Positions 53,338 to 62,687 of a stretch of 64,000 nt of DNA are shown here, in pieces. The notes below the pieces were generated by a model. That model had not been told where the DNA came from, did no database searches, and was given only the letters and a program-made list of their open reading frames with translations. A program made the position numbers and the translations under genes. Source of the stretch: Myxococcaceae bacterium (GTDB taxonomy: Bacteria > Myxococcota > Myxococcia > Myxococcales > Myxococcaceae); assembly GCA_016793095.1 (NCBI GenBank), contig JAEUJQ010000001.1, forward strand, positions 62,001 through 126,000, given 5' to 3'. The first letter of the stretch is position 1; every line of letters begins with the position of its first letter.

Positions 53338-54080
<743 letters not shown>

Positions 54081-54084
<4 letters not shown>

Positions 54085-55061
54085 GCGTTCCTCTCTTTCA
54101 TCCAGGTGATGAGGGCTGGGTACAGCTTGTCCGCGGCCCTGCTTCCCACAACCGCGCCCACGTGGCCACCGGGGACCGAGAGCACGCGGGCCTCGCGCGA
54201 GGTGACCGCGGAGTTGATCGCCGTCGCGGCAGCCGGTGGGCAGATGGTGTCCTTCTCGGCGGCGATGGTGAGCACCGGGCACGTGATCGAGCGCAAGTCG
54301 ACGCGCTTGCCGCCGACGTAGTGCTTGCCCTGTACGAGCAGGTTCCGCTGGTACAGCTCGTCGATGTACGTGGTGTACGCAGCGGCCGGGAAGGCGACGT
54401 TGTCGTTGGCCCAGGCCTCGAGCGCCTCGAAGGACTCGCGGAACGCCGGGTCGAAGGCGCGATCGAGCACGGTGACGAGCTTCGACAGATCCTGCGTGGG
54501 CCGCAGCAGCTTGAAGCCCGACTGCATCTGATGGGGCGCGACGTTGCCGGCCTCGGCGATGGCCTCGGCGTCGAACCACCGCGGATCCGTCATGTGCGCG
54601 AGCAGGCCGGCCTTCGAGAAGTCGATGGGCCCCAGCAGGTTGATGAAGCCCGCGTACCGCTCAGGGTGAAGGGCCGCGTGCACGGAGCACAGCGTCGCCC
54701 CCATGCAGTAGCCGAGCACCGTGAGCTTGTCCTTGCCCGTCTCACGAATGGTGCGGCGCATCATGCGATCGAGGCGCGCCAGCGCGTCCTGCCAGGTGAA
54801 GTACCGGTCGTGATCTTCGGGGGCGCCCCAGTCGAGGCACCAGACGTCGAGGCCGGCGTTGACGAGCGCCTCGACGACGCTCGAGCCCTTGCGCAGGTCG
54901 AGCACGTACCAGCGGTTGATCATCGACGGCACGAGGAAGACGGGCGGCGCGTCGGCGAGCGCGACGTCACCTGCGGGGTGAAACCGGTACAGCTTCGCGG
55001 GGCCGTCTTCGAGGACGGTGCTCCGCGGGGTGGGCATGAGCGAGGTGGGCTGGTTGAGCAT
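54081..55061 (-). CDS. phaC: Class III-like PHA synthase subunit PhaC
   Basis: A 326-aa alpha/beta-hydrolase-fold polymerase. The lipase-box-like GYCMGAT puts the nucleophile at Cys119. The Asp is in AAEKDTICPP and the His in VPGGHVGAVV. The segments FLVPSMINRWYVLDLRKG and LDWGAPEDHDRYFTW are typical of PhaC. The short length fits class III, where PhaC needs a PhaE partner. It polymerises (R)-3-hydroxyacyl-CoA on granules. It lies between the phasin and reductase genes on the same strand and is one of two phaC genes in this locus. Confidence 0.9.
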
Positions 55062-55548: not shown

Positions 55549-56061
55549 CTACCTTCTTCGCTTCTGCAGCGAGGCCTTCAGCTCGTCGAGCTCGCGGCGC
55601 AGGCTCTCGACGTCGGCGGGCGGGGGCTGGGGAGTGGCGGGCCCCTGCGACTGCGCCGACGGCTGCTGCCCGCCCAACCACCCGCTGAAGGGCCCGCTCT
55701 GGCCGAGGAAGGGGTTCAGCGCCAGCAGCGGGTTGAAGGGCATGATGGCCTGGGTCGACTTGCGGGCCTGCAGGTAGAGCTCGAGGGCGCCCTGCACGTA
55801 GCGCCCGAGGAACTCGGCGAGGGCGTCGTCGCCGAGACGAATCAACTGGTGGAGCAGCGGCGCGGGGAACAGCGTGTCGGCGCCCCGACTCTCGATGATG
55901 ATCTGGGTGAGCGTCTCCTGGGTGAGGTCGCGGTTGGTCTTCGCGTCCACCACCCGCACCTCGGCCCCACCCCGGATCTTCCCGGTCAGCTCCTCGAGCG
56001 TGATGTAGCGGCTGGCTTCGGTGTCGTAGAGGCGGCGGTTGCCGTACTTTTTGACGAGCAT
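55549..56061 (-). CDS. phaR: PHA synthesis regulator PhaR
   Basis: A 170-aa regulator. The N-terminal PHB_acc DNA-binding domain has the family hallmark KKYGNRRLYDTEASRYITL (residues 4-22), followed by VVDAKTNRDLTQETLTQII. The second helical region covers about 75-115 (LGDDALAEFLGRYVQGALEL), then a Pro/Gln-rich stretch and a final short coiled coil (SLRRELDELKASLQKRRR). PhaR represses phasin genes until granules form, then binds PHA and releases DNA. It is transcribed with the phasin gene in the same direction but the phasin has its own promoter between them. Confidence 0.93.
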   Translation of the reverse strand: MLVKKYGNRRLYDTEASRYITLEELTGKIRGGAEVRVVDAKTNRDLTQETLTQIIIESRGADTLFPAPLLHQLIRLGDDALAEFLGRYVQGALELYLQARKSTQAIMPFNPLLALNPFLGQSGPFSGWLGGQQPSAQSQGPATPQPPPADVESLRRELDELKASLQKRRR

Positions 56062-56254
56062 GCGTCAGCCATAGCACCCGCCTTGTGCAACGCAACAGCG
56101 GGGCTTGACATGGGCGTCGCAAAGCGTCATTTGAGCCCTCGTATTGCTGCACATGCACATGACGCCAACGACGCCCCGCGACGCCCGACCCTCTCCCGAG
56201 CCCCCGGGTGGATTTCGCGCGGGTGGCGGCGTATTGGCCCGCGCGGAGGCTGGT
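56062..56254. promoter_or_regulatory. Divergent phaR / lipoprotein-operon control region
   Basis: These 193 bp separate phaR (minus) from the plus-strand operon. They contain TGC-rich motifs: TTGTGCAACGCAACAG at 56083-56098 and ATTGCTGCACATGCAC at 56143-56158. Similar TGC/GCA pairs are PhaR targets in some alphaproteobacteria. TTGACA at 56105-56110 is a -35 candidate on the plus strand, with no clear -10. Confidence 0.35.
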
Positions 56255-57259
56255 GTGGTTCGACTTCGACTGGTGGCGCCGCTGATCACGCTGGCCCTTG
56301 CCTGCGGCACGAACCCGCCCATGCCCGACTGCCGTGTCGGGGCCGACTGCGCGAGCGGCGTGTGCTCCCGTGAGGGGAAGTGCGCCCCGGCGGCCGGCGG
56401 TGGCGTCGCGGGTGGCGCTGGCGGGGGAGCGATGACTGGCGGCGGGGTGGCCGGGGGCGTGATGGGCGGCGGCGCGGCCGGCGGCCAGGCTGGCGGCGCG
56501 AGCGGCGGCGGTCAGGCGGGCGGTCAGCCCACGGGCGGGGGCGTCACCTGCCTGCCGAACCACGACGGCACCATCACCCGCGCGGAGGTCGTCACGGCCC
56601 CGGGCCTGCGGGCGACCTTCCGCGTCTCGGAGCAGACCGCCTTCGACACCTCCGGCATCGGCCTCCCGGACGGGGGACGCGCGTGGGACTTCACGCAGGT
56701 GCTCACCGGCGACCTGAACACGCTGGTCGAGACCCAGGCGATCCAGGGCAAGTGGTTCGAGTCGCACTACCCCGACGCCGGCTACGTCGTGCCCCTGGGC
56801 CAGGGCACCGATCTCATCGCGGTCTTCGCGTCGAACCCCGACGGGCTGTACCTTCTGGGCACGGCGTCGCCGACCGACGGGCTGCTCTCGACCCGCCTCA
56901 CCTACACCCCACCCGTGAAGCTCCTGCAGTTCCCGCTGCGGTCGGGTGACACGTGGAGCACCGCCTCGATGGTGACCGGCACCGCGAGCGGCGTCGCCAT
57001 CTTCGGAACGACCGACACCTACACCTCGACCGTGGACCGCGCGGGCGAGGCGAACACGCCCTACGCGCGGTTCCCCGTGCTGCGCGTGCGAACGACGATG
57101 GAGCGGAGCGTGCCGCTCAACCCCTTCGCCAACACGAGCTTCCGGCAGTTCCAGTACGTCACCGAGTGCTTCGGGACGATCGCCGCCGTGCGCTCACGCG
57201 ATCTCGAGACCTCGACCGAGTTCATGACGGCGAAGGAAGTGCGGAGGCTGGCGCCGTGA
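56255..57259 (+). CDS. Lipoprotein of the PHA-locus envelope module (paralogue 1)
   Basis: A 334-aa lipoprotein (VRLRLVAPLITLALAC) with a small Cys cluster (CRVGADCASGVCSREGKC) and a Gly-rich linker of about 60 residues. The folded domain starts at LPNHDGTITRAEVVTAPGL. It shares a pattern with the 278-aa lipoprotein at 59748: an N-DG-I-EV start, GKWF.S.YP with VPL, YTSTVDRAGE and TECFGTIAAVRS at the end. The family is unknown. The GTG at 56255 has GGAGG 6 nt upstream; longer starts lack a signal at the right place. It leads a run of genes overlapping by 4 nt. Confidence 0.82.
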   Translation: MVRLRLVAPLITLALACGTNPPMPDCRVGADCASGVCSREGKCAPAAGGGVAGGAGGGAMTGGGVAGGVMGGGAAGGQAGGASGGGQAGGQPTGGGVTCLPNHDGTITRAEVVTAPGLRATFRVSEQTAFDTSGIGLPDGGRAWDFTQVLTGDLNTLVETQAIQGKWFESHYPDAGYVVPLGQGTDLIAVFASNPDGLYLLGTASPTDGLLSTRLTYTPPVKLLQFPLRSGDTWSTASMVTGTASGVAIFGTTDTYTSTVDRAGEANTPYARFPVLRVRTTMERSVPLNPFANTSFRQFQYVTECFGTIAAVRSRDLETSTEFMTAKEVRRLAP

Positions 57260-58173
57260 CGGGGTTGGCCACCCTCAGCCGGGTCGTGCGCTGGGGGCTG
57301 GCGGCCTCGCTCGTCACCTGCGGGACGGGGTGTCTGTCGCACCACCAGGGCGCGATGAAGGGCGAGCCGATCGAGGCCACCTTCCTCACCATCGAGGGCA
57401 CGCGCGTGCGCTACCTCGACGTGGGCCAGGGCCCGCCGGTGGTGCTGCTCCACGGCTTCGCGTCGGCCATCGAGAACTGGGCCGGCGTCATCCCCGAGCT
57501 CAAGCAGAAGCACCGCGTGTTGGCGCTCGATCTCAAGGGCTTCGGGTGGACCGACCGGCCCGTCGGCGACTACTCGCCCGCGGCCCAGGCGGCGGTGGTG
57601 AAGGCGCTCATGAAGGAGCGCGGCATCGACAAGGCCGCCATCGTCGCCCATTCGTGGGGCAGCTCGGTGGCGCTCGCCTTCGCGCTCGCCTGGCCCGAGG
57701 CCGTCGATCGGATCGCGCTCTACGACGCGTGGGTCTACGAGCAGCAGCTGCCGTCGATGTTCCAGCTCGCGCGCGCGAAGGGCCTGGGCGAGTTCCTCTT
57801 CGCGGCCTTCTACTCCGAGCGAGGCGAGGAGCGGCTCGCGAACGGCTTCTACGACCCCGAGATCATCCCCGAGAAGCTCGTCGAGGACGTCGAGCAGGCG
57901 ATGGAGCGGCCGGGCACCCGGGCGGCGGCGCTCGAGGCCGTGCGGGGCATGCGCTTCTCCGACGTCGAGGCGAAGTACTCGACGATCAGCCACCCCACCC
58001 TCCTCCTCTGGGGCCGCGAGGACATCGTCACGCCCCCGTCGATCGGCGAGCGGCTCGTGCGGCAGCTGCGAAACGCCCGCCTCGTCGTCTACCCCCGCTG
58101 CGGCCATTTCCCGATGATCGAGGCGCTCGCCGAGTCGAACCGCGAGCTGCTGACGTTCCTGGAGGGCCAGTGA
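57256..58173 (+). CDS. Lipoprotein alpha/beta hydrolase
   Basis: A 305-aa hydrolase. Its N-terminus has a lipobox-type sequence (LAASLVTCGTGC), so it is probably membrane-anchored outside the cytoplasm. The fold is clear: oxyanion segment VVLLHGFASAIENW, nucleophile Ser in AHSWGSS (about residue 134), Asp in WGREDIVTPP and His in PRCGHFPMIE. Substrate unknown; an ester such as a PHA oligomer is an attractive guess because of the neighbours, not something the sequence shows. GTG start inside a 4-nt overlap with the preceding lipoprotein and another GTGA overlap with the next gene. Confidence 0.88.
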   Translation: MTGLATLSRVVRWGLAASLVTCGTGCLSHHQGAMKGEPIEATFLTIEGTRVRYLDVGQGPPVVLLHGFASAIENWAGVIPELKQKHRVLALDLKGFGWTDRPVGDYSPAAQAAVVKALMKERGIDKAAIVAHSWGSSVALAFALAWPEAVDRIALYDAWVYEQQLPSMFQLARAKGLGEFLFAAFYSERGEERLANGFYDPEIIPEKLVEDVEQAMERPGTRAAALEAVRGMRFSDVEAKYSTISHPTLLLWGREDIVTPPSIGERLVRQLRNARLVVYPRCGHFPMIEALAESNRELLTFLEGQ

Positions 58174-59738
58174 TCGGCGCCCTCCTCGCGCTCGTCCTCA
58201 CGACCGGCCCGTCGGGCCTCGGCGCGCACGGCGAAGATCTGCTCGTACGCGAGAAGCCCGAGGTGAAGCTGAGCGGGTTCTTCCGGGTGCGCGGCGATCT
58301 GCTGCACAACCTCGACCTCGATCGCGGCACCACGCCATCGGGGCTGCCCCTCTTCGCGGTGCCCCTGTCCGACCCGCTGGGCCAGTCGCTCGCCGTCGCC
58401 GACATGCGCCTGCGCACGGACCTCGCGATCTACGCGCCGTTCGCAGCTGCAGCAGTGAAGGTGCGCGCCGATCTCATCGACGATCTCGTGCTCGGCTCGA
58501 CGCCCGCGCTCTCTCCCGGCACCGGCAACGCCCCGACGCCGGCGGCCTCTCCCGGCCAGCTGCCCGCCTCGCTCTTCCGCATCAAGCGCGCCTACGGCGA
58601 GGTGCTGACGCCGATCGGCTACTTCGCCGCCGGGCGCATGGGTAACCAGTGGGGCCTCGGCATGCTGTCGAACGGCGGGGACTGCCTCGACTGCAACCTC
58701 GGCGACGCCGCCGATCGCCTCGCCTTCGTGACCGCGCTCGCGGGGCACCTGTGGGCCGTGGCCTACGACTTCTCGGCCGTCGGCCCCACGCCCCTGCGCA
58801 AGGACGGCCAGCGTGCCCTCGTGCTCGACAACGCGGTAGACGTGAAGAGCGTCACCTTCGCGTGGATGAACGTTCGCGACGACGTCTCGCGACGCCGGCG
58901 CACGCGGGCCGGAAAGCTGACCCTCGAGTACGGCGCCTTCGTCTCCCACCGCTGGCAGGACTTCGACGCGCCCGAGTCCTACCTGCCGGTCTCCACCGTG
59001 CGTCCCCTCGCGCCGGCCTCCGTCATGCGCCGGGGCTACCGCGCGCTGGCGGCCGATGCGTGGCTCCGCCTCACCGCGCCCTCGTTCCGCGTCGAGCTCG
59101 AGGGGGCGATGCTGTTCGCCGAGTCGGAGCAGGCGTCGCTGCTGCCCGGCGTGCTGCTGCGCGACAAGGTGCAGTCGGCCCAGTTCGGCGCGGCGCTCGA
59201 GACGCAGCTCGGCGCCAACGACGCGCGGTTCGTCGGTGGGCTCAACGCGGGCTACGCGAGCGGCGACCCGGCGCCCGGCTTCGGCGCGTTCCCCCGCGGC
59301 GCCACGCCCGCGGCCACCGGAGAGCTCGACGGCGCGCAGGTGAACGTGCCCCGCGACAACCGCGTCGACAACTTCCGCTTCCACCCCGACTACCGCGTCG
59401 ATCGCATCCTCTGGGCCGAGCTCGTCGGCACGGTCACCGACGCGCTCTACGTGCGCCCGTGGGGGCGGCTGCGGCTGCTCGACTTCTCGAGCACCCAGCT
59501 CAACCTGAAGAGCGCGGCCACCGTGTCCCGCACGATCTTCGCGCCCTCGACGCCGAACAACGACGCCGCCCTCGGCATGGAGCTGTGGGCCGCGCTCACC
59601 TGGGAGTCGAAGGACGGCTTCGACGTGCTCGCCGAGTACGCCGTCCTGTTCCCCTTCGGCGCGTTCAACAACCCCACCCAGGGCCTCACCGCGACGCCCG
59701 CGCAGCTCGGCCGGGTTCGCCTGGCCTGGAAGTTCTGA
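58170..59738 (+). CDS. Outer-membrane beta-barrel-like protein (TIGR04551-like)
   Basis: A 522-aa protein with a signal peptide (GALLALVLTTGPSGLGAHG). The rest has alternating hydrophobic and polar strands typical of porin-like barrels (KLSGFFRVRGDLLHNL, DMRLRTDLAIYAPF, RVELEGAMLFAESE) and ends with RVRLAWKF, a C-terminal aromatic as used by the BAM complex. It resembles TIGR04551 proteins of Myxococcota, whose role is unknown. A CLDCNLG Cys pair lies near residue 175. GTG 58170 overlaps the hydrolase stop by 4 nt and has GGAGG just before it. Confidence 0.82.
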   Translation: MIGALLALVLTTGPSGLGAHGEDLLVREKPEVKLSGFFRVRGDLLHNLDLDRGTTPSGLPLFAVPLSDPLGQSLAVADMRLRTDLAIYAPFAAAAVKVRADLIDDLVLGSTPALSPGTGNAPTPAASPGQLPASLFRIKRAYGEVLTPIGYFAAGRMGNQWGLGMLSNGGDCLDCNLGDAADRLAFVTALAGHLWAVAYDFSAVGPTPLRKDGQRALVLDNAVDVKSVTFAWMNVRDDVSRRRRTRAGKLTLEYGAFVSHRWQDFDAPESYLPVSTVRPLAPASVMRRGYRALAADAWLRLTAPSFRVELEGAMLFAESEQASLLPGVLLRDKVQSAQFGAALETQLGANDARFVGGLNAGYASGDPAPGFGAFPRGATPAATGELDGAQVNVPRDNRVDNFRFHPDYRVDRILWAELVGTVTDALYVRPWGRLRLLDFSSTQLNLKSAATVSRTIFAPSTPNNDAALGMELWAALTWESKDGFDVLAEYAVLFPFGAFNNPTQGLTATPAQLGRVRLAWKF

Positions 59739-59747
59739 GGAGACGAG

Positions 59748-60584
59748 ATGACGACGCGACCCCTCCTCCCCGTGCTCCTCGTCGCCGCCGCCGGGTGCGA
59801 TCCCAACCGCACCGTGCCCGATCGCAACGCGTACGTGCCGCAGACCGTGGCGCCGCTCGAGTGCGTGCCCAACCTCGACGGCAGGATCGAGGCGACCGAG
59901 CTGAAGACGGCCCTCGGGGTGCCGGTGCGGTACCTCGTCAACCCGACCGGCACCCGCCGGCCCGTCGACCTGGCGGGCGTCACGGACGGCGCGGGGCGGC
60001 GGATCTGGCAGCTCTCCACGGACTACGCAGACGATCAGCTGGCCACGATCTCCGCCTCCACCCTCGAGGGCAAGTGGTACCGCGCGAGCTTTCCCAGCGG
60101 GCAGTTCGTCGCGCCGCTCGATCTCGGCGGCGCCATCGAGGCGGTGTACCTCAACGATGGCGCGACGCTGCTGCTGCTCGGCTACGCGTCGAAGGACGAG
60201 GCGCCAGCCGTGGGCAAGACGCTGGTCGTCTACAGCTCGCCGATCGCTGCCCTGCGCTTCCCGGTGACGCCAGGCCAGCAGTGGATCTCGGCGAGCGAGG
60301 TGCGCAACGCGACCGTGCGCGGGCTGCCGTACGCGGGTCGCGACACCTACACGCTGCGCATCGACGCCGCGGGCACGCTCGACCTGCCCGACGTCACCTT
60401 CACCCAGGCGATGCGGCTGCGCACCATGTTGTCCATCGAGCCGGCGGTCGGCGCCTCCGTCATCCGCCGGCAGACCGGCTTCTTCTTCGAGTGCTTCGGC
60501 GAGGTGGCTCGCGCCGTCAGCGCCGACAACGAGGCGAACGACGACTTCACCCAAACCACCGAGCTCAGGCGGCTCGGCTTCTGA
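59748..60584 (+). CDS. Lipoprotein of the PHA-locus envelope module (paralogue 2)
   Basis: A 278-aa lipoprotein (LLPVLLVAAAGC). It lacks the Cys cluster and Gly linker of the 334-aa protein at 56255 but shares the same domain: CVPNLDGRIEATELKTALGV, GKWYRASFP, FVAPLDLGG, YTLRIDAAGTLDLP and FFECFGEVARAVS. The two copies sit on either side of the hydrolase and barrel genes. Strong ribosome site GAGGAG 9 nt before ATG. Function unknown. Confidence 0.85.
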   Translation: MTTRPLLPVLLVAAAGCDPNRTVPDRNAYVPQTVAPLECVPNLDGRIEATELKTALGVPVRYLVNPTGTRRPVDLAGVTDGAGRRIWQLSTDYADDQLATISASTLEGKWYRASFPSGQFVAPLDLGGAIEAVYLNDGATLLLLGYASKDEAPAVGKTLVVYSSPIAALRFPVTPGQQWISASEVRNATVRGLPYAGRDTYTLRIDAAGTLDLPDVTFTQAMRLRTMLSIEPAVGASVIRRQTGFFFECFGEVARAVSADNEANDDFTQTTELRRLGF

Positions 60585-60616: not shown

Positions 60617-60910
60617 ATGATCTGGGAGACCTGGAAGAAGGGCTTCGACACCTGGGAGCAGAAGACGGCCGAGATGATGGAGACGGTGCTGAAGAGCCCG
60701 GCGGTGTTGCAGCCGATGGGCAACATGCTGACCGCCTCGATGAAGATGAAGGCCGCCACCGACAAGGCCATCGCCAACTGGTGGGAGCTGATGGGCCTGC
60801 CGACCCGCCGCGATCAGGAGCGCACGCTGCACGCCCTCAACCAGCTGCAGAGCCGGCTCATCGATCTCGAAGAGAAGCTGGCCGACCTCGACAAGGCGAA
60901 GAAGAACTGA
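60617..60910 (+). CDS. Small PhaE/phasin-like helical protein
   Basis: A 97-aa amphipathic helical protein (ETWKKGFDTWEQKTAEMMET, then NMLTASMKMKAATDKAIANW). Its C-terminal part LGLPTRR-type (here MGLPTRRDQERTLHALNQL, then LIDLEEKLADLDK) resembles the conserved end of PhaE, the partner of class III PhaC, and also some phasins. It stands before the acyl-CoA ligase and second phaC. It may activate either PhaC. It has a strong GAGGAG site and is much shorter than typical PhaE. Confidence 0.78.
   Translation: MIWETWKKGFDTWEQKTAEMMETVLKSPAVLQPMGNMLTASMKMKAATDKAIANWWELMGLPTRRDQERTLHALNQLQSRLIDLEEKLADLDKAKKN

Positions 60911-60944: not shown

Positions 60945-62687
<1,743 letters not shown>

Follow-up and report, generated by a model that had tools for sequence, protein, structure and literature searches.

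PHA is generally treated as a purely internal store, and gene clusters for it with a class III-like synthase and PhaR carry phaR, phasin, phaC, phaE and phaB genes. In the uptake of fatty acids through FadL and FadD, the acid crosses the inner membrane by flip-flop and the ligase traps it as a CoA thioester, while in PET degraders the MHETase, an outer-membrane lipoprotein of the alpha/beta-hydrolase type, acts ahead of the uptake of the acid monomers. Among the lipoproteins of the outer membrane, GfcB, of the YmcC type, binds the neighbouring barrel GfcD (PMC8592465), and the motif TG[N]TGC[N]3GCAA was identified by footprinting in Herbaspirillum as the site of PhbF/PhaR (PMC3206438).

Parts that resemble these systems are found together in the DNA analysed here, a stretch of 64,000 nucleotides (the window) which corresponds to C85:62001-126000 within a genome of 8.8 Mb, and which contains a four-gene envelope module set between two arms of a PHA locus.

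Organization of the locus

The genes of the locus, in window positions, are as follows.

53338-54084, minus strand: PhaB-like SDR reductase of 248 aa, assigned from sequence, at the end of the divergent PHA arm
54081-55061, minus strand: PhaC1, a class III-like PHA synthase with a GxCxG (GYCMG) box; TIGR01836 237 bits
55149-55424, minus strand: phasin-like small protein of 91 aa; weak Phasin_2 similarity (E 0.03), position conserved
55549-56061, minus strand: PhaR, PHA-responsive regulator; PHB_acc_N (PF07879) 88.4 bits, above the Pfam cut-off of 25, and TIGR01848 98 bits, under the cut-off of 109
56255-57259, plus strand: LP1, paralogue of LP2, a lipoprotein with a Gly-rich linker and an LP domain; its sequence shows the signal LALAC
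57256-58173, plus strand: Hyd, lipoprotein alpha/beta-hydrolase with an intact Ser-Asp-His triad
58170-59738, plus strand: barrel, 18-strand outer-membrane channel according to its model, of the TIGR04551 family, with a C-terminal Phe
59748-60584, plus strand: LP2, lipoprotein with a predicted YmcC/LolA-like fold of the lipid-carrier type
60617-60910, plus strand: PhaE-like short PHA synthase partner of 97 aa; PF09712 34 bits, above the cut-off
60945-62687, plus strand: Lig, AMP-forming acyl-CoA ligase of the FadD type; PF00501 214 bits, PF23562 41 bits
62689-63969, plus strand: PhaC2, class III-like PHA synthase; TIGR01836 277 bits, nearest solved structures the PHB polymerases 5hz2/5t6o

This arrangement bears out the anatomy given in an earlier note on this DNA, in which two paralogous lipoproteins were said to flank a hydrolase and a barrel at 56255-60584, with PHA genes following in the same direction. 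All four genes lie on the plus strand, and the genes after them are phaE-like, acyl-CoA ligase and phaC. The overlaps that it reported among the first three genes are likewise present, GTGA being shared by LP1 and Hyd at 57256-57259 and by Hyd and the barrel at 58170-58173. The remaining junctions are also tight, with gaps of 9 bp between the barrel and LP2, 32 bp between LP2 and the PhaE-like gene, 34 bp between the latter and the ligase, and 1 bp between the ligase and PhaC2. Upstream, phaR, the phasin-like gene, phaC1 and phaB form an arm divergent from the module, and orthologues of the PhaB-like protein, 65-94% identical, occupy the same position in many loci.

Neither synthase reaches the class III cut-off (TIGR01836, 365.3 bits), and PhaC1 and PhaC2 are thus, by sequence, relatives of the class III synthases and not curated members. 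PhaC2 retains the catalytic features of a PHA synthase (GYCMG, EHDNIVPG and GGHVG), as aligned with the solved PHB polymerase 5hz2. The solved relatives of the ligase include FadD13, feruloyl-CoA synthetase and carboxylic acid reductase.

The proteins of the module

LP1 and LP2 are paralogues with 31% identity over 243 aa (E 3e-30), and neither gave any hit in Pfam or NCBIfam, hence no family-level match to GfcB/YmcC. The predicted structure of LP2 (pLDDT 89) has as its top fold matches the YmcC-like lipoproteins, with Z scores of 9.6, 9.0 and 7.0, followed by FapF, LmcA and others; given that Foldseek alone yields an E of 0.007 at best, this is a putative likeness of fold and not membership. 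In one genome (G056, L051:8837-10587), two LP2-type genes stand in tandem after the barrel at the end of a contig, on which no phaE, ligase or phaC was detected.

Pfam places Hyd among the alpha/beta-hydrolases (Abhydrolase_1, 110 bits), and its lipobox Cys26 and its triad Ser133, Asp256 and His284 are invariant among the 17 orthologues aligned. Among solved structures it is closest to meta-cleavage hydrolases, and behind these comes a mixed group with the PHB depolymerase 8ynv and 6i8w, the latter of which we take to be the membrane-anchored PlaF of Pseudomonas. Given the breadth of these relatives, with the meta-cleavage hydrolases scoring highest, the likeness to PlaF is not specific. The N-terminal half of Hyd aligns with the solved PHB depolymerases 8ynv/8ynw, and in the profile search the protein reached none of the PHA-depolymerase cut-offs, its 78 bits to the intracellular nPHA-scl family (NF050089) being far under the cut-off of 300.

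The barrel belongs to TIGR04551, with 312 bits over residues 33-522 against a cut-off of 300; this is its only match in NCBIfam, and no Pfam family was found at E <= 1. Its AlphaFold model (pLDDT 79.5) has 18 strands, and the nearest solved folds are AlgE (Z 24.8), MOMP (Z 24.7) and the OprD/Occ channels (Z of about 20-23), at about 10% identity to OprD/Occ or AlgE and with no family-level sequence match to either; no such match to FadL was found in Pfam or NCBIfam. Another TIGR04551-like barrel, with about 35% identity, is encoded elsewhere in the same genome, at G000:C82:46880-48427 (L063:6887-8425), and occurs throughout the 60 relatives searched, which indicates that the barrel of the module is a specialised paralogue. 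The universal copy showed no constant neighbour when its context was compared in three genomes. The conserved pore charges of the module barrel are mixed (17 basic and 13 acidic) and mostly common to the universal paralogue, so they are no proof of an acid channel and an acid-selective pore is not claimed.

Distribution and linkage with PHA genes

The contigs of 84,980 genomes were scanned against the LP alignment, which yielded 73 loci, all of them in MAGs of or near Myxococcota by label, including Polyangiaceae, Sandaracinaceae and Kofleriaceae. The window has its relatives among Myxococcota MAGs with labels such as Archangium and Myxococcaceae.

The earlier note had proposed conservation of the module with phaC across genomes as a check, and would have taken a module occurring mostly without PHA genes as refuting its proposal. 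On this check the proposal clearly holds, given that phaR, phaE or phaC lie in the same stretch in 69 of the 73 loci; of the remaining four, the stretch is short or cut in L084, L087 and L101, the fourth being L117. The seven genes from LP1 to PhaC2 are collinear in 46 loci, in 41 of which phaR lies, in addition, on the other strand, and most loci have two PhaC genes. Among the 60 relatives, LP2 is present in 19, and in 18 of these the module is flanked by the divergent phaR and by phaE-lig-phaC2, to the extent that the contigs cover the region.

The order of the genes is not fixed. Members of distant clades (G163, G182 and G183) have the order Lig-LP-Hyd-Barrel-LP-PhaC, and in G061, G062 and G065 LP1 is preceded by PhaR and PhaC, the ligase lying still further upstream. 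A divergent PhaC-like protein with a GYCGxG box takes the place of PhaC behind LP2 in G192 and L117. This divergent family, with a GYCGQG or GYCGSG box, is represented by L117:7651-9063 (plus strand) and L140:5973-7592 (minus strand), which are 48% identical to each other and match TIGR01836 weakly, with 20-26 bits, the L117 copy having no Pfam match. Despite rearrangement in several distant clades, therefore, the module keeps the ligase and a PhaC nearby, and because the gene order recurs across the phylum, the association of the module with PHA is more than local chance.

At the level of the phylum, the module is present in 35 of 195 genomes. A PhaC (E <= 1e-40) was found in 30 of these 35 and in 46 of the 160 genomes without the module (Fisher p 5e-10, relatedness not corrected), and the PhaC2 orthologue in 19 of the 35 against 3 of the 160 (Fisher p 4e-14, likewise uncorrected). 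The intracellular PHB depolymerase domain PF06850 occurs in nine of the 195 genomes, of which only G021 and G030 have the module; most module-bearing genomes lack the domain.

The association has exceptions in both directions. In G076 (L152) and G077 (L153), phaR and phaE-lig-phaC2 are adjacent with no module between them, and in G007 PhaE-Lig-PhaC2 is present and LP2 was not detected upstream. The module is thus a dispensable add-on to this PHA locus, and the ligase must have a role independent of it. Conversely, G070 and G193 have the module with no PHA genes close by, PhaR being located elsewhere in both genomes.

PhaR-type operators and predicted regulation

Two further features lie between phaR and LP1.

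56083-56097: PhaR-operator-like box TTGTGCAACGCAACA, of the TGCN3GCA type, the first base of which deviates from the strict TG[N]TGC[N]3GCAA
56105-56110, plus strand: TTGACA, putative -35 element of the module promoter, right after the PhaR box

The TGCN3GCA motif was found in all 44 of the phaR-LP1 gaps tested, with 81 sites where 9.3 would be expected under a dinucleotide model. The strict form, TG.TGC...GCAA, is present in 29 of these gaps, and its density of 2.38 per kb there compares with 0.066 per kb in the remainder of the same loci. In many of the loci, TTGAC(A) comes after the box, and TGCN3GCA also precedes LP1 in G192, in L117 and in G070, which has no PHA gene nearby. Given these boxes ahead of LP1, control of the module by PhaR is predicted; some of the TGCN3GCA sites may serve phaR itself. 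A further TGC/GCA-rich stretch, TTGCTGCACATGCACATG, is located past the TTGACA at window positions 56144-56161, and similar stretches are found there in several loci.

Proposed role and alternative explanations

The linkage suggests that, in many uncultured myxobacteria, acids enter through the outer membrane for storage as PHA. The reading preferred here, to which we give an even chance, is that the module is the outer-membrane uptake arm of the PHA storage operon; it was built from the gene content, the catalytic residues, the predicted folds, the linkage with the ligase and PhaC, and the PhaR-type boxes. Hyd, as an outer-membrane lipoprotein esterase or lipase presumably exposed on the outer leaflet, would split ester-linked (hydroxy)acids off lipids or oligoesters outside the cell or off prey material. 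These hydrophobic acids could be carried or gated by LP1 and LP2, with their predicted LolA/YmcC-like open barrels, and, if the parts hand over to one another, the 18-strand barrel would let the acids inward through the outer membrane. At the inner membrane the acids would cross by flip-flop, pulled by the ligase, with no need of an extra gene; the FadD-type ligase would trap them in the cytoplasm as CoA thioesters, which PhaC2 and PhaE would polymerise into granules, either as such or following conversion. PhaR is predicted to turn on the module together with granule synthesis.

The earlier note had already proposed that acids may be moved across the envelope to feed the ligase and PhaC, and the anatomy, the linkage and the PhaR-type operators are in keeping with this part of its claim. 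That the ligase recurs next to the module although the gene order varies points to free, incoming acids as the cargo, and an operon with no inner-membrane permease is consistent with trapping in the manner of FadD. Counted against uptake are the genomes G070 and G193, with no PHA genes beside the module, and the occurrence of PhaE-Lig-PhaC2 without it in G076, G077 and G007.

The direction of transport could also be outward, given that AlgE exports and that GfcB and GfcD belong to a capsule (export) operon, so that the fold leaves the direction unfixed. An export arm would carry out of the cell, or put in the outer membrane, hydroxyalkanoate oligomers, hydroxyacids or a PHA-tailed product, much as AlgE exports alginate and as has been proposed for GfcBCD with lipid-anchored capsule, and Hyd would trim or release the product. 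We consider this rather unlikely, and retain it since export is the function, known or proposed, of the closest folds and arrangements, those of AlgE and GfcBCD: the barrel fold is closest to that of the alginate exporter AlgE (Z 24.8), and the LP fold seems to resemble that of YmcC/GfcB, whose partner GfcD exports lipid-anchored chains according to a model (PMC11494523). Predicted control by PhaR would match the formation of a product, and, as it would mean expression during granule formation, it fits uptake and export alike. However, the operon has neither an inner-membrane exporter nor a periplasmic duct, the acid-activating ligase, which accompanies the module in more than one gene order, points to incoming acids, and the import-type MOMP and OprD/Occ channels fit the barrel nearly as well (Z 20-25). 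A PHA-linked envelope machine that places polyester or oligomers at the cell surface, or secretes them, under the control of PhaR is similarly doubtful.

Another explanation requires no external substrate. Hyd may be a PlaF-like (phospho)lipase, in which case the module would serve envelope housekeeping by recycling fatty acids from the outer membrane of the cell itself while carbon flows into PHA. The alignment of Hyd with 6i8w, the putative lipid-carrier-like folds of the LPs and the predicted control by PhaR agree with this, but 6i8w is one among other hydrolases in a broad set of relatives, and the patchy presence of the module (35 of 195 genomes) is a poor fit for a housekeeping function, which makes this explanation quite unlikely.

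The use of external PHA, the other substrate raised in the earlier note, fared worse, given that Hyd falls under every PHA-depolymerase cut-off. According to this idea, which we regard as improbable, Hyd would be an oligomer hydrolase acting downstream of a secreted PHA depolymerase, comparable to the MHETase of PET users. The module does adjoin PHA genes, and Hyd is weakly similar to the nPHA-scl depolymerases (78 bits) and, in its N-terminal half, to 8ynv/8ynw, but it stays far under the family cut-off of 300 and the operon has no secreted depolymerase; the broad esterase family PF10503, found in 93 of 195 genomes, has no evident tie with the module and is uninformative. Finally, co-inheritance of module and PHA locus by synteny with no functional link, as the module-less loci of G007, G076 and G077 and the modules away from PHA genes in G070 and G193 might suggest, is rejected as highly unlikely, since the association outlasts several rearrangements and even the replacement of the synthase, PhaR-type boxes precede LP1, and the operon is tightly spaced.

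Comparison with known systems

If the preferred reading, that of an uptake arm, is true, the storage of PHA is tied to events at the cell surface. The locus gives first hints on the uncharacterised families TIGR04551 and LP1/LP2, and in uncultured Myxococcota it provides a setting in which a coupling of substrate capture to the synthesis of polyester can be tested. A literature search on the module (TIGR04551, myxobacterial and Myxococcota PHA genes), open-access and judged by titles and abstracts and thus weak evidence of absence, found no description of it.

In comparison with the known PHA clusters, the core enzymes and the regulator are the same here, and the operator is close to TG[N]TGC[N]3GCAA (PMC3206438). 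What sets the locus apart is that its operon also encodes an outer-membrane module and an acyl-CoA ligase, that PhaC is present twice in most cases, and that the synthases score below the curated class III cut-off. With FadL/FadD the locus shares an outer-membrane channel and an acid-trapping acyl-CoA ligase, in an operon with no inner-membrane permease; unlike that system, its channel is an AlgE/OprD-like 18-strand barrel and not FadL, the product goes to PHA, and a lipoprotein hydrolase is present together with two carrier-like lipoproteins. The 18-strand fold itself is like that of OprD/Occ and AlgE (Z 20-25), whereas the module barrel, about 10% identical to them, belongs to the separate family TIGR04551.

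In the GfcB(YmcC)-GfcC-GfcD set of the group 4 capsule, and in YjbFGH, the gene of an outer-membrane lipoprotein of the YmcC fold stands beside that of a beta-barrel with which the lipoprotein may act (PMC8592465), an arrangement that the LP genes would match if their predicted fold holds. Here, in contrast, two paralogous lipoproteins with no Pfam match replace GfcB and GfcC, the hydrolase is located between them, and the linkage is with PHA and not with polysaccharide. Hyd differs from MHETase in that it belongs to a different hydrolase family and is joined to genes of polymer synthesis. The parts are therefore of known kinds, and it is their combination, a PHA operon to which an outer-membrane arm belongs, that is so far found only in Myxococcota MAGs.
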